A stretch of 64,000 nt of DNA, from contig CAMOJK010000005.1 in assembly GCA_946616835.1 (NCBI GenBank), positions 1-64,000 on the forward strand, written 5' to 3'. Origin of the DNA: an uncultured Lachnospiraceae bacterium (lineage in GTDB: Bacteria > Bacillota > Clostridia > Lachnospirales > Lachnospiraceae). A program made the position numbers and the translations under genes. The notes under the pieces were generated by a model. That model ran no database searches, was not told where the DNA came from, and saw nothing but the letters and a program-made list of their open reading frames with translations. Shown here in pieces: positions 9,420 to 18,186 of the stretch (position 1 is the stretch's first letter; every line of letters begins with the position of its first letter).

Positions 9420-9495
9420 ACAGAATTCGACTATTATTTGGGACGCTTACAGCACTTTGTAATTTGCTGTGCAATGTCAGTTGCGGAGGTGTGGA

Positions 9496-10695
9496 ATGCC
9501 TGCAAAAGTTACATTAAAAAAGGGTGAGGGACGGCTGCTTAAAAGAGGCGGTGCCTGGATATTCGACAATGAGATAGCCGGTGTTTCCGGAGATTTCTCT
9601 AATGGAGATATAGTAGATGTGGCGGACTATGACGGATATCCCCTCGGAAAAGGTTTCATAAATGTAAACTCAAAGATACGTGTACGGATACTGACAAGAG
9701 ATCCTGCGCAGGAGATAAATGATGATTTTTGGAAAATGCGGGTAATGAATGCCTGGGAATACAGAAAAAAGACTGTGGATGTTTCTTCCTGCCGCGTGAT
9801 ATTCGGCGAGGCGGATTTTATCCCGGGATTTGTAATGGATAAATACGAAGATGTGCTTGTATTCCAGGCTCTTGCCCTGGGGATAGACAGGTACAAGGAA
9901 AAGCTCATCGGGATCGCAAAGGAAATCCTTGGCAGGGACGGAATAGAAATAAAAGGTGTATATGAGCGCAGTGATGCAAAGGAACGTGAAAAGGAAGGGC
10001 TTGAAAAAGTAAAAGGCTTTATAGGTGACGCGTTCGACACTAATGTGTCCATATGTGAAAATGGAGTTAAGTATATCGTGGATGTAATGGATGGCCAGAA
10101 GACCGGTTTCTTCCTTGATCAGAAGTACAACAGGAAAGCAATCTGGCCCATGGCAGGGGGAGCGAAGGTGCTGGACTGCTTTACCCATACAGGTTCCTTT
10201 GGCCTGAATGCAGCAGTGGCAGGAGCTGCAAGTGTTCTTTCTGTCGATGCATCTGAAAGTGCCCTGACAGTGGCGGCTGAGAACGCAAGACTTAATAATG
10301 TAGAGAATATTGTAAGCTACAGGTGCGGTGATGTGTTCGAGATACTGCCGGAGCTTATAGCTCAGAACGAGTCCTATGACCTCGTGATACTTGATCCGCC
10401 GGCCTTTACGAAATCAAAGAATTCCGTAAAGAATGCCTCAAAGGGGTATCGGGAAATAAATATACAGGGGATGAAGCTTGTGCGTGATGGGGGATTCCTT
10501 GCAACCTGCTCCTGCTCACATTTTATGACATTTGACCTTTTCAGTGAGGTCATAGCCGGAGCTGCAAAGGCTGCGCACGTGAAGCTGCGCCAGGTGGAAT
10601 TCAGGACACAGTCCCCGGATCATCCCATACTCTGGTCAGCGGATGAGTCATATTATTTGAAGTTCTACATCTTCCAGGTGGTGAAGGAGCGGTAG
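9496..10695 (+). CDS. Class I SAM-dependent RNA methyltransferase, RlmI/YccW-like (PUA + MTase)
   Basis: PUA-like N-terminus (GRLLKRGGAWIFDNEI), VLDCFTHTGSFGLNAA SAM motif, LDPPAF motif; start chosen at ATG 9496 after gcggaggtg; ORF track begins at 9469. Confidence 0.9.
   Translation: MPAKVTLKKGEGRLLKRGGAWIFDNEIAGVSGDFSNGDIVDVADYDGYPLGKGFINVNSKIRVRILTRDPAQEINDDFWKMRVMNAWEYRKKTVDVSSCRVIFGEADFIPGFVMDKYEDVLVFQALALGIDRYKEKLIGIAKEILGRDGIEIKGVYERSDAKEREKEGLEKVKGFIGDAFDTNVSICENGVKYIVDVMDGQKTGFFLDQKYNRKAIWPMAGGAKVLDCFTHTGSFGLNAAVAGAASVLSVDASESALTVAAENARLNNVENIVSYRCGDVFEILPELIAQNESYDLVILDPPAFTKSKNSVKNASKGYREINIQGMKLVRDGGFLATCSCSHFMTFDLFSEVIAGAAKAAHVKLRQVEFRTQSPDHPILWSADESYYLKFYIFQVVKER
10658..10695 (+). 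repeat. Left attachment-site repeat (attL), last codons of the RlmI-like gene
   Basis: TGAAGTTCTACATCTTCCAGGTGGTGAAGGAGCGGTAG; matches 16892-16929 except G/A at one position. Confidence 0.88.
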
Positions 10696-11425: not shown

Positions 11426-12049
11426 ATGATTATTATGGGAAATATTTATGGTTATGCCAGAGTGTCGTCCCGTGAACAAAACGAGGACAGACAGATCATA
11501 GCACTGAAGGAAATGGGGGTGCAGGAGCAGAATATATTTGTTGATAAGCAATCCGGAAAGAACTTTGATCGTCCGCAGTACAAGAAACTTATAAGGAAAC
11601 TTAAACCGGACGACCTTATCTACATAAAGAGCATAGACCGGCTGGGAAGAAACTATAACGAGATACTGGAACAGTGGAAAGTGATAACAAAGGGAAAAGG
11701 GGCTGATCTGTATATCATAGATATGCCGATTCTGGATACCCGCCGGGAAAAAAATCTGCTAGGTACTTTTATAAGTGACCTGGTGCTTACGCTTCTGTCA
11801 TATGTTGCGGAGAACGAACGGGCAAATATCAGGCAGCGTCAGGCGGAGGGAATTGCACTTGCAAAAGCAAGAGGGGTTCATTTCGGTCGGACACCGAACC
11901 CGTTGCCGGAAAACTTCTATGATGTCTATCAGCAATGGAAACTAAAGAAACTCACGATAAAACAGGCTGCTTTACAGTGTGGAATGCCGCAGACAACATT
12001 CTTTGAAAGGGCAAAGGCATTCGAGAAATCCACCCTTCCGAAAGACTAA
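11426..12049 (+). CDS. Serine recombinase (resolvase/invertase family)
   Basis: YARVSSREQNEDRQ catalytic serine region, IDRLGRNY motif, C-terminal HTH. Confidence 0.93.
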   Translation: MIIMGNIYGYARVSSREQNEDRQIIALKEMGVQEQNIFVDKQSGKNFDRPQYKKLIRKLKPDDLIYIKSIDRLGRNYNEILEQWKVITKGKGADLYIIDMPILDTRREKNLLGTFISDLVLTLLSYVAENERANIRQRQAEGIALAKARGVHFGRTPNPLPENFYDVYQQWKLKKLTIKQAALQCGMPQTTFFERAKAFEKSTLPKD

Positions 12050-12050
12050 A

Positions 12051-12227
12051 AAATTCGGGAAAGTGTACTTTTCCGAATTTGTATTGTTTCTATCACTATG
12101 CAAAATTTTATCACCGTAATATATCAAAAACAAGTTTATCCCGAAAAAATGGAGTTTTTTATTATTATCAATATTAGTAAGACCTTTGCTTAATAGCATG
12201 TTCGGAAAAGTACACTTTTGTGAATGA
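12051..12227. promoter_or_regulatory. Candidate invertible segment flanked by inverted dyad recombination sites
   Basis: Site L 12051-12080 AAATTCGGGAAAGT-GT-ACTTTTCCGAATTT; site R 12198-12227; reverse complement of L shares 18 contiguous nt TTCGGAAAAGTACACTTT with R, same central dinucleotide in inverted orientation. Confidence 0.6.
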
Positions 12228-12299
12228 AAGGAGTTTCTTCGGAACAATTCATCATATTTACATTCTCGTTTAAGTGATTATAGGAGGTATAAAGGGAAA

Positions 12300-12746
12300 A
12301 TGGCTTTTGGGGATAGAAAAAAGAAAATTGGTGACCAGCTGATAGAGGCGGGGCTTCTGTCTCGTAAACAGATGGAAAGTGTGATTTTAGAACAGAAGAA
12401 TAATCATATGGGAATGATTGATACCATAATGGCGATGGGGCTTGTTTCGGATGAAGATCTAGCAAAATTTATGCATGAAAATCAGGGGTATGAGCTTGCA
12501 ACAGATGATGACATGAAGTCGGCTGATTCTCAGGCAATTGCTGCGGTAGGTGATGATTTGGTGAGAAAGCATGAGGTTATTCCTTTGTGTTTTGAGAATG
12601 GTAAATACATGAAGGTAGCCATGTCGGATCCTACGAACCTTGCGGTATTGGATGACTTGGAAATGATATCTGGCATGACAGTCATTCCATATTATGCACC
12701 AAAGAGGATGATAATTGTGTATTTGGATAAGATGTATAGCAGATAA
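12300..12746 (+). CDS. Stand-alone MshEN / T2SSE_N-like domain protein
   Basis: KIGDQLIEAGLLSRKQMESVILEQ and LVSDEDLAKFMHENQG modules as in GspE/PilB N-termini; no ATPase domain follows; RBS taggaggt. Confidence 0.7.
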   Translation: MAFGDRKKKIGDQLIEAGLLSRKQMESVILEQKNNHMGMIDTIMAMGLVSDEDLAKFMHENQGYELATDDDMKSADSQAIAAVGDDLVRKHEVIPLCFENGKYMKVAMSDPTNLAVLDDLEMISGMTVIPYYAPKRMIIVYLDKMYSR

Positions 12747-12774: not shown

Positions 12775-13455
12775 TTGGGAAAAAAACAATTGCGAATATG
12801 TGGGGATAAAACAATGAGTACAAAAACAGAAAACCACAATAAGACTTTTAAAAATGTGCTTGAACAAAATAAAAATATTGCACATGGGTATTATGATGCG
12901 GCGGAACTGGTTAAAAACGGTATGCTTGAAAAAAACATAAACTATTTAGGATCACCCATAAAGACACTTTATGGGTTTTCTCTTGAAATTGCTTTAAAAA
13001 TGCTATATGCATATGATAATCGTTCAAGTATTAGTAGTTATGATGATTTATTAAAAGTGTTGAAAAAAGAAAGACACGATGTTAAAAAAATCTTTCACAA
13101 ACTATCTAACGCTACCAAGGCTAAATTACAGGAAAGTTATAAAAAAATTAATTCTGATTCTACTGAAGATATAGCTGTTGCAATTGGCAGTTTGGCGGAT
13201 TTCATTAAAGTACGATATCGTTATGAAACATCTGAAAAAGAAAGCAAGATAATTGCCAAACAGTTAAGTGATAGCCTTTGTGAAGATAGTGGTGAAAATG
13301 AATGCTATTACTTGCCATTTGCCCCTATTTATCCGGTAACTGATATAAGTAAAGATCCTGCTTTGTGTGAAGCGGTTCTTGAAGTGTTGGATAGCGATTT
13401 TGTGACCATAGTGGATTCTTTTACGAAAAAAGATGAAATAGACGAGCAGTCATAA
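12775..13455 (+). CDS. Hypothetical helical protein, possibly HEPN-like
   Basis: 226 aa ORF; SPIKTLYGFSLEIALKMLYA and RHDVKKIFHKLS resemble HEPN-like helices; likely start at 12814. Confidence 0.6.
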   Translation: MGKKQLRICGDKTMSTKTENHNKTFKNVLEQNKNIAHGYYDAAELVKNGMLEKNINYLGSPIKTLYGFSLEIALKMLYAYDNRSSISSYDDLLKVLKKERHDVKKIFHKLSNATKAKLQESYKKINSDSTEDIAVAIGSLADFIKVRYRYETSEKESKIIAKQLSDSLCEDSGENECYYLPFAPIYPVTDISKDPALCEAVLEVLDSDFVTIVDSFTKKDEIDEQS

Positions 13456-15081: not shown

Positions 15082-15462
15082 ATGAGTAATGAAACAATCA
15101 ATCAAAAAGTAACATATTTGTTGACGTCTGGGAAGGGCAATCCAGTTGAGAAAACAATTGAGTTTGATGGGGGATTATTACAAAAAGATCTTCTTTTACA
15201 GTTATACTATTGTGATATGATGAAAATAAGAGCAAGAACTTTTGATGTGGTAAATTATGTTTCGAACTGGCTATATGCAAAATGTTGCCAGAATGAAAAT
15301 TTTGAAACACAGAAATGGGTAATCGTTCCTGGCTACGAAAGTTATCAGATATTGGCTCAGATATATGCTAAGCAGTTAATCGAGTCTGTTGAGGAAAAAG
15401 AGGGGAATTTCTTTATGCTAAGTCAGCAGGGTAAGGATACTTGCAAAGACTATTTAATTTGA
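15082..15462 (+). CDS. Hypothetical protein
   Basis: 126 aa ORF, RBS aggaggtataagta upstream. Confidence 0.65.
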   Translation: MSNETINQKVTYLLTSGKGNPVEKTIEFDGGLLQKDLLLQLYYCDMMKIRARTFDVVNYVSNWLYAKCCQNENFETQKWVIVPGYESYQILAQIYAKQLIESVEEKEGNFFMLSQQGKDTCKDYLI

Positions 15463-15701: not shown

Positions 15702-16793
15702 ATGGAGAAAGAAAAAATGGCAAGATTTATCAATCGGTTTGGAAAGCGACAGACATTGTATGCATCCACAATGACGGAGATAAGCAGAAAACTACGGGAT
15801 GAGCGATTTTATGATGACAATGAGCTTAATGTGGCTGACAGCACAATAACGCTGGATGAATGGTATGAGAAGTGGATTAAGACCTGTAAATCTCATTGCA
15901 GGGATACCACAAAGCGAACATACCAGATTCAGTACAATCGGCTTAGTCCATTGATAGGCTGGCGAAAGATCAATAAACTTAATCTTGTCATTCTTCAGGA
16001 TGCTTTCAATCAGTTGGGAAGCGATAAATCAAGAGAAGATTGTAAGGCACTTCTGGTTGACATTCTGAATAGGGCAGTGGAAACGAATCTTCTTAATAAA
16101 AATCCGGCAGTAGCGGTCAAAACTCGCCTAGTGAATAATCCAAAAGAAGAAAAGCGTATTCTGACAGAGGAAGAAACTGATATTCTGCTTGAATGTGCAA
16201 AAGACAGCATGATGTATCCGGTTTTTGTGGTTGCACTAGGAACTGGGATGCGTATAGGCGAGATACTTGGGCTGACATGGGACTGCGTGGATTTTGAGAA
16301 GTCCATAATTCGGGTTGAAAAAACACTTGTTTATATGCCTGGGAATGGAAAAGCAATCTACGAGTTTCATCAGCCAAAGACAGAGGCTGGAAGACGCCAG
16401 ATCCCTATGAGCAAGGATGTCAAAAAAGCGCTGCTTGCCCAGAAGGCATGGAAGGATAGAGTCTCAATTCGGCATAATCCCCGTCCGGGAATGGAGGATC
16501 TGGTATTTTGCAGCAAGACAAATAATCCTATAAATGAGTCAAATGTGAGAGGGGCTATAAGGTGGCTTGTAGAAAAGATCAACCGTATGGAATCTCATAA
16601 AGGATTTGAACCATTTACGCCGCATGGATTAAGGCATACCTTTGCAACCAGATGTATTGAAAAGGGGATGCGGCCTAAGACTTTGCAGAGAATACTCGGA
16701 CATAATTCTTTGCAGATGACTATGGATCTGTATTGTCATGTGGAAATTTCAACAATCTGGGATGAAATGGCTTTAATTTCCGAAATGGTATAG
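15702..16793 (+). CDS. int: Tyrosine-type integrase
   Basis: TGMRIGE, HGLRHTFA, GHNS and DLYCHV catalytic R..H-R..H..Y residues; N-terminal arm-binding-like segment. Confidence 0.96.
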   Translation: MEKEKMARFINRFGKRQTLYASTMTEISRKLRDERFYDDNELNVADSTITLDEWYEKWIKTCKSHCRDTTKRTYQIQYNRLSPLIGWRKINKLNLVILQDAFNQLGSDKSREDCKALLVDILNRAVETNLLNKNPAVAVKTRLVNNPKEEKRILTEEETDILLECAKDSMMYPVFVVALGTGMRIGEILGLTWDCVDFEKSIIRVEKTLVYMPGNGKAIYEFHQPKTEAGRRQIPMSKDVKKALLAQKAWKDRVSIRHNPRPGMEDLVFCSKTNNPINESNVRGAIRWLVEKINRMESHKGFEPFTPHGLRHTFATRCIEKGMRPKTLQRILGHNSLQMTMDLYCHVEISTIWDEMALISEMV

Positions 16794-16891: not shown

Positions 16892-16929
16892 TGAAGTTCT
16901 ACATCTTCCAAGTGGTGAAGGAGCGGTAG
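16892..16929 (+). repeat. Right attachment-site repeat (attR)
   Basis: TGAAGTTCTACATCTTCCAAGTGGTGAAGGAGCGGTAG, 37/38 identical to 10658-10695. Confidence 0.88.
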
Positions 16930-17175: not shown

Positions 17176-18186
17176 TTAAACAGTTGTGTTAGAGGATGAA
17201 GCTTTGTATGCGGCAAGCTGCGCCTTTAACTCAGCATTTTCCTGCTGGCTTTTATCGAGAGCTGCTTCGGCTGCGCTGAGTTGGGCTTCAGCATCATTAC
17301 AGCGTTTGGTCAGGTCATCGATCATGTATTTGGTTGTATTGCGGTCCATTATCCTGAGGGCTTCCGAAAACATGCCGATCACCTCCTCCGGCTTATTCCT
17401 GAATTCAGCAATATCTCTGTACAGAGGGATGAATTCAGGGTGAAAGTGTACAAGCTTAACTATTTCATCTGGCTTTTCAAATGTAAAGAATGAAAGCCAT
17501 GCATTCCGCTTGCTGTCAATTATATTGTGCATTTGTTTCCTGAAGGTGTCAAGGGAAATATATACCACGTTGTCGAGAACAGTAACCTTTGCACCGCTGT
17601 TGTAACGGGTTACTTTCTTGTGTATGAACTTGGGTGCCACGGCAGAGAATTCTGCAGAACTCTTTTCCATAAGGATGATAAGCGTCACTGGCTTGAGATC
17701 TTTGTAGCTGAAACTTTCGCCCTTTTCGGAGCGTACCTTTCCGTACTGTCGCATTATCATGTCTGCCGTATAGCAGTCGGAACGTTCACCAGGAAAATAG
17801 TACCCTATACGCTGCATTTCTACGTTCACTATCGCACCGGTATCAGTTTTTACTATGATGTCCATGATGACCTGGCTGCCGGTTTCCGTTATGGCAGTGC
17901 CTTCCCTTGAAAGAATCTGTACAATATTTACCTTCTGCCCGAGTATTGCGGAAATCAACGATTCGATCCTTTCTGGGTGTACATCGGGCTTAAAGACATG
18001 CTGGAAAAATTTGTCCGAAAGAATCTGCAGTCCCTGTGAACCTTCTAAAAACGACAGGATGCTTTTCTGGTCATTGGCACTGAAGCTTTTCCATTCCTCA
18101 TAGAGTAGGCTGTTTTCAATGATGCTGATAATTTCGGGGCGTGGACGCTTATCGCCAAAGATTTCGCCAAATGTGAGTGTTGCCAT
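17176..18186 (-). CDS. Rpn-family / PD-(D/E)XK nuclease family putative transposase
   Basis: SDKFFQHVF, MDIIVKTDTGAIVNVEMQR (D..ExQ core), C-terminal coiled coil. Confidence 0.85.
   Translation of the reverse strand: MATLTFGEIFGDKRPRPEIISIIENSLLYEEWKSFSANDQKSILSFLEGSQGLQILSDKFFQHVFKPDVHPERIESLISAILGQKVNIVQILSREGTAITETGSQVIMDIIVKTDTGAIVNVEMQRIGYYFPGERSDCYTADMIMRQYGKVRSEKGESFSYKDLKPVTLIILMEKSSAEFSAVAPKFIHKKVTRYNSGAKVTVLDNVVYISLDTFRKQMHNIIDSKRNAWLSFFTFEKPDEIVKLVHFHPEFIPLYRDIAEFRNKPEEVIGMFSEALRIMDRNTTKYMIDDLTKRCNDAEAQLSAAEAALDKSQQENAELKAQLAAYKASSSNTTV

Follow-up and report, generated by a model that had tools for sequence, protein, structure and literature searches.

The window examined here, the whole 64,000-nucleotide stretch from an uncultured Lachnospiraceae bacterium, carries a serine recombinase gene followed by two inverted dyads that enclose a promoter, and this arrangement is very likely a phase-variation switch worked by its own recombinase (Table 1). 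The locus shows three hallmarks of this functional class, namely inverted dyads with complementary centres, an internal promoter (by a sequence model), and the occurrence of both orientations in nature (in relatives). Comparative analysis shows a conserved architecture, inversion of the segment between relatives, both promoter orientations within the family, and a helical spacing of the sites; flipping in this organism, catalysis by the recombinase, and transcription of the cargo genes are inferred. A sequence-only reading had proposed phase-variable promoter inversion at this place, and that proposal is strongly supported by the relatives but not shown for the organism itself, nor is an effect on the cargo.

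In gut Clostridia, phase variation has mostly been attributed to tyrosine recombinases. The switches described here probably represent a large and apparently undescribed serine family in gut Clostridia; no description of it was found in the literature searched, which did not cover a key catalogue (Jiang et al. 2019). These predictable switches of 95-180 bp precede restriction-modification, BrxA, capsule, acyltransferase, lipoprotein, sortase-like, and LRR genes, and stand before surface proteins and anti-phage systems. Being small and self-contained, they could serve as genetic parts.

The site pair, its promoter and the recombinase

A re-check of the sequence confirmed the dyad coordinates that had been proposed, the 18-mer shared by the two dyads, their inverted orientation, the centre distance of about 147 bp, and the position of the recombinase stop codon directly before the first dyad. 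The claim of a shared central dinucleotide also held: GT and AC are reverse-complementary and non-palindromic, and the feature is conserved as a unit with the promoter and the recombinase. A repeat search ranked the two sites first among the inverted pairs of the region, with arms of 25 nt that are 88% complementary and lie 123 nt apart. The dyads are 26-30 bp long, lie inverted to each other, and enclose the minus-strand promoter; no further copy of the 24-bp dyad core was found in the 64-kb window with up to 3 mismatches, the expectation from shuffles being 0. The limits of the segment were predicted from the complementary centres, the spacing rule, and homologous segments found inverted in relatives.

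The promoter-like element earlier noted on the minus strand held, as did the view that the window is currently OFF, which is the call of a promoter model fitted to the family (a sequence model, not a measure of expression). This promoter, only moderately strong, was not picked in the segment by a generic promoter scan and is picked by the family model.

Among solved relatives, the recombinase scores highest against Sin / Tn552 Bin3 (102.8 bits), followed by gamma-delta resolvase (82) and a Gin-type DNA invertase (49). Sequence membership in the Hin/Gin DNA invertase family was not met, the protein being nearer to Sin/Bin3 (102.8 vs 49 bits), and neither was membership in the Mpi master invertase family NF009949 (46.9 bits, cut-off 272). 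Another contig of the same genome (C8, locus L016:1514-3480) encodes a recombinase 64% identical to that of the window within a similar cassette, in which the stop codon is followed by about 14 bp, a dyad, an AT-rich segment, an inverted dyad, and a cargo gene inferred from sequence alone to be sortase-like. Site 2 of this paralogue is doubled in tandem, with copies 18 bp apart, and only the 158-bp spacing lies near whole helical turns. The promoter is only roughly conserved there; its counterpart in UBA4364 (locus L047, genome G400) reads TTGATT-N17-TAAAAT. No such site pair was found in the own genome beyond the window and C8 loci, pairs occurring only beside each recombinase. No dyad pair was seen downstream of a serine recombinase on contig C30 (41% identical), and the viral contigs searched contained no relatives.

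Table 1. Features of the probable switch, its cargo, and the surrounding island (positions within the window)
Feature	Position	Strand	Evidence or description
attL-like 38-bp repeat	10658-10695	none	3' end of methyltransferase-like gene 9469-10695
Serine recombinase, 207 aa, proposed cis-acting invertase	11426-12049	+	PF00239, E 2.6e-30
Predicted crossover site 1	12051-12080	none	dyad AAATTCGGGAAAGT-GT-ACTTTTCCGAATTT, centre GT 12065-12066
Predicted invertible segment	12065-12213		centre to centre 147 bp = 14 turns of 10.5 bp
Putative promoter TTGTTT-N17-TAAAAT	12133-12105	-	faces recombinase (OFF); -10 ends 38 bp from site 1 centre
Predicted crossover site 2	12198-12227	none	dyad ATGTTCGGAAAAGT-AC-ACTTTTGTGAATGA, centre AC 12212-12213, outer half degenerate
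AGGAGG RBS-like sequence of first cargo gene	12282-12287	+	sequence
Cargo 1, 148-aa stand-alone MshEN-domain protein	12300-12746	+	PF05157, E 1.5e-12
Cargo 2, orphan 213-aa protein	12814-13455	+	no family
Cargo 3, zinc-ribbon / BspA-type LRR / CFI-box protein, 516 aa	13501-15051	+	PF13306, E 1.3e-76
Cargo 4, 126-aa protein without family	15082-15462	+	profile search
Tyrosine integrase of island	15702-16793	+	PF00589, E 2.3e-32
attR-like 38-bp copy, 1 mismatch	16892-16929	none	direct repeat of 10658-10695

Conservation, inversion and spacing among relatives

Relatives of the recombinase occur in 117 of 397 sampled Lachnospiraceae genomes (E <= 1e-40) and in 52 of 391 genomes sampled at the level of the class Clostridia (E <= 1e-50); 80 additional loci were drawn from GTDB species genomes. 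Site pairs were called by a fixed rule based on a GTNNAC core within 360 bp around the recombinase stop, in which neither the centre nor the similarity of the sites was used as a criterion. The rule identified a dyad pair in 72 of 138 related loci; applied to the DNA upstream it gave 0/138, and applied to dinucleotide-shuffled sequences 15/2760, which excludes chance as the origin of the pair. The central dinucleotides are reverse-complementary in all 72 pairs, and identical non-palindromic centres, which would indicate direct orientation, were found in none of the 72. Most centres are GT/AC, with AC/GT, AT/AT, CT/AG, and AA/TT also present; the AT/AT centre is palindromic and thus gives no orientation information. 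The 66 of 138 loci without a pair under the strict rule are attributed to a divergent core or loss.

Sixty loci fetched later yielded 23 pairs, 21 of them complementary. In one exception (L196) the second site is duplicated in tandem, and its other copy is complementary; the other exception (L216) is likely a false pair. At one locus (L163), two convergent family recombinases have a single invertible segment between them common to both; the apparent inversion there is an artefact of this sharing and was not counted. False or weak pairs at L096 and L136 were left out or discounted. Statistics across related loci are not fully independent; the nearest-pair and later-sample tests agree.

Comparing orientation in related genomes, a check suggested with the original proposal, revealed relatives in both orientations. 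One case involves three separate genomes, in which the 118 bp from centre to centre of L044 match those of L058 and L129 at 118/118 positions only as the reverse complement. The last 140 bp before site 1 and 300 bp beyond site 2 are identical, the surrounding 7-9 kb or so are about 99% identical, and the breakpoints fall at the central dinucleotides; the cargo is a C5 DNA methyltransferase. The segment is also inverted between L067 and L070 (143/148 identical) and between L033 and L034 (102/123), the latter with an acyltransferase as cargo.

The promoter model was fitted on 78 non-redundant segments, and scores on these are optimistic because the same set was used for training. On the better strand 62 of the 78 exceeded the 95% shuffle level, the other strand scoring much lower. 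The resulting calls were 57 OFF, 14 ON, and 7 ambiguous, or about 80% OFF and 20% ON among called loci. In 53 of 71 called loci (7/14 among ON loci), vs 17 of 390 shuffles, the -10 element ends 36-41 bp away from the facing site's centre. The register is mostly 38-39 bp in either orientation, with minor classes near 28 and 49; in the later loci it was 36-41 bp in 9/22 and 26-29 bp in another 9/22. On the recombinase tree, 13 state changes account for 14 ON rows, the ON loci being scattered, and orientation is not inherited along the tree; the pair neighbouring the window's locus combines an ON member (L018) with an OFF member (L048). The UBA4364 locus and the C8 paralogue are both OFF, and there is no ON example of the window's own locus. 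The regularity of site position, spacing, and promoter register allows the ON/OFF state to be read from a single assembly.

Centre-to-centre distances cluster around 115, 126, 137, 147, 158, and 167 bp. Tested at a period of 10.5 bp, 76 non-redundant loci gave a resultant length of 0.737, which none of 5000 jittered sets reached, and a mean phase of -0.1 bp. Among 26 disjoint pairs of nearest relatives with differing spacing, the differences also lie near whole turns (R 0.51, p ~0.001), and the loci added later show the periodicity again (R = 0.70, n = 23, p ~1e-5). From this regularity we infer a direct looping that brings together two bound sites on the same face of the DNA.

The sites also differ in their predicted RNA structure. 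The site 1 stretch, lying right after the stop codon, folds at -17 kcal/mol (z -4.2) and is terminator-like; the site 2 hairpin of the window is weaker. Across 71 loci, the hairpin at the OFF exit has on average 10.9 pairs vs 8.7 at the ON exit (p 8e-11) and an energy of -6.9 vs -3.4 (p 2e-7), and its tail is more T-rich (p 6e-7). The hairpin difference holds in loci of both states, the C8 paralogue being an exception with a stronger ON-exit hairpin. Site 1 is thus modelled as an intrinsic-terminator hairpin as well as a crossover site; alternatively, its strength may simply reflect termination of the recombinase gene.

Proposed mechanism, rival explanations and known systems

In the proposed mechanism, the recombinase would bind both dyads, pair them over a DNA loop of 14 helical turns, cleave at the central GT/AC dinucleotides, and rejoin the segment in either orientation. 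In the OFF state, as read here, the promoter faces the recombinase gene, and transcription from it is expected to stop at the hairpin of site 1. With the segment inverted, the promoter would face an operon of the MshEN, orphan, LRR, and 126-aa genes, with a start some 120 bp before the first ATG, and the ON transcript would cross site 2, which has an outer half too degenerate for a strong terminator. The earlier expectation that the inverted promoter points toward position 12300 onward is consistent with both promoter orientations in the family. Synapsis by looping, termination at site 1, ON transcription of the cargo, and flipping in the organism all remain inferences.

The whole-turn spacing of sites, the 38-39 bp promoter register, and the doubling of site 1 as a predicted terminator are new here; for the spacing, the nearest precedent found in the literature searched is the helical-phasing experiments on the Hin enhancer (PMC3798978). 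The spacing also lends itself to testing directly in what way a serine invertase locates its partner site when no enhancer is known. We lean, by a modest margin, towards a bolder reading whose two halves share one joint degree of confidence. In the first half, a large and hitherto undescribed clostridial family of cis-acting serine invertases would synapse its two sites through a short loop, in direct contact and without a Fis-type enhancer, for which no search was made; if true, this would account for the restriction of natural spacings to whole turns (~11 to 17). In the second, a compact module comprising a fixed-register promoter and a terminator-like site 1 would be reused by mobile islands before exchangeable cargo, including defence systems.

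A first rival explanation, already named as an alternative in the sequence-only reading, holds that the dyads are subsites of a res site and that the recombinase resolves direct repeats for a mobile element without flipping a promoter. In its favour, Gin-type enzymes are less close to the recombinase in sequence than Sin / Tn552 Bin3 or gamma-delta resolvase, and the recombinase sits on an integrated island. It is nevertheless very unlikely, since the crossover dinucleotides never take the direct orientation that resolution needs (complementary in 72/72, direct non-palindromic in 0/72) and the product observed in nature, with intact flanks, is inversion; the fixed-register promoter between the sites also speaks against it.

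We consider it similarly improbable that the switch is real but fixed, or almost fixed, in the OFF state in this lineage, as a relic or a very rarely used device. This view draws on the OFF state of the window, UBA4364, the C8 paralogue, and 57 of 71 called loci, and on the absence of a flipped junction or contig from the own assembly. Against it, the recombinase and both sites are intact, the spacing is exactly in phase, the neighbouring clade has ON and OFF members (L018 and L048), and assemblies retain only the majority state. That the dyads are merely terminators or regulator-binding sites, without recombination, is suggested by the terminator-like hairpin directly after the stop codon and can be all but dismissed, as a terminator needs no second copy at whole turns with a complementary centre, the inverted segments with intact flanks would be left unexplained, and hairpin and crossover site can coexist.

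The preferred reading, an invertible promoter switch with its own serine recombinase, resembles the Hin/Gin systems (Salmonella hin-fljBA) in having a serine recombinase beside a promoter segment, inverted 26-bp dyads, and a 2-bp crossover. The hin segment is about 1 kb long, whereas here the segments measure 95-180 bp, the recombinase lies outside them, no enhancer is known, the sites are spaced by whole turns, and the enzyme is nearer to Sin/Bin3. In the gut commensal Bacteroides fragilis, the serine recombinase Mpi flips short promoter segments (PMC4747536); Mpi acts in trans on 13 regions, whereas here each recombinase adjoins its own switch, and there are no biochemical data on trans action. 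The Sin / Tn552 Bin3 and gamma-delta resolvases, the closest solved relatives by sequence, have in common with the switch a 2-bp crossover at a dyad. These enzymes resolve direct repeats, whereas here both the sites and the product are inverted. The invertons of gut Firmicutes_A (PMC11892184) and the C. difficile switches are alike in their short segments, inverted repeats, occurrence in Clostridia, and location near surface and restriction-modification genes. Near its inverton groups, the survey mentions recombinases of the tyrosine type or site-specific integrases, and its main text nowhere contains the word 'serine' (PMC11892184). In C. difficile, the switches are worked by RecV, a tyrosine recombinase.

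Cargo genes and the island

The earlier assignment of MshEN and LRR domains to the cargo held, supported by the matches to PF05157 and PF13306. Cargo 1 scores slightly below the cut-off for the c-di-GMP motif NF053729 (35.3 bits vs 38), and cargo 3 exceeds that for the CFI-box NF041770 (65.4 bits, cut-off 40). The label 'HEPN-like' given to cargo 2 failed as unsupported: no Pfam match rose above the cut-off, a single-sequence AlphaFold model was uninformative (pLDDT 35), and no relative was found in 387 Lachnospiraceae genomes. Family-wide, the first genes after site 2 encode AMP-binding enzymes, MBOAT and other acyltransferases, ResIII/DEAD helicases, BrxA, MmeI/Eco57I-type and other methyltransferases, CpsB/CapC, a sugar transferase, EAL proteins, flagellin, and lipoproteins.

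The switch of the window is carried by a 6.2-kb integrated island bounded by the 38-bp direct repeats, with the integrase adjoining the attR-like copy. The insert is absent from two genomes (G415, locus L180; G397, locus L181), where an HD-GYP-like gene, whose counterpart lies near 18.6 kb in the window, comes within about 30 bp after the methyltransferase-like gene. UBA4364 has an island at the same place (L047:5811-7227), with a recombinase 98% identical and the same promoter half, followed by three cargo genes unrelated to those of the window; the switch module and the cargo are thus exchangeable independently of each other.

Two side observations concern neighbouring or related elements. 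The methyltransferase module with its switch, present in L044, L058, and L129 (L250, L251), has its promoter ON in one and OFF in two, and the near-identity of this 7-9 kb module (~99%) across three genomes may point to a recent transfer. In the window, a gene for a PD-(D/E)XK_2 transposase-family nuclease (17176-18186) adjoins the island; the gene occurs in UBA4364 as well.
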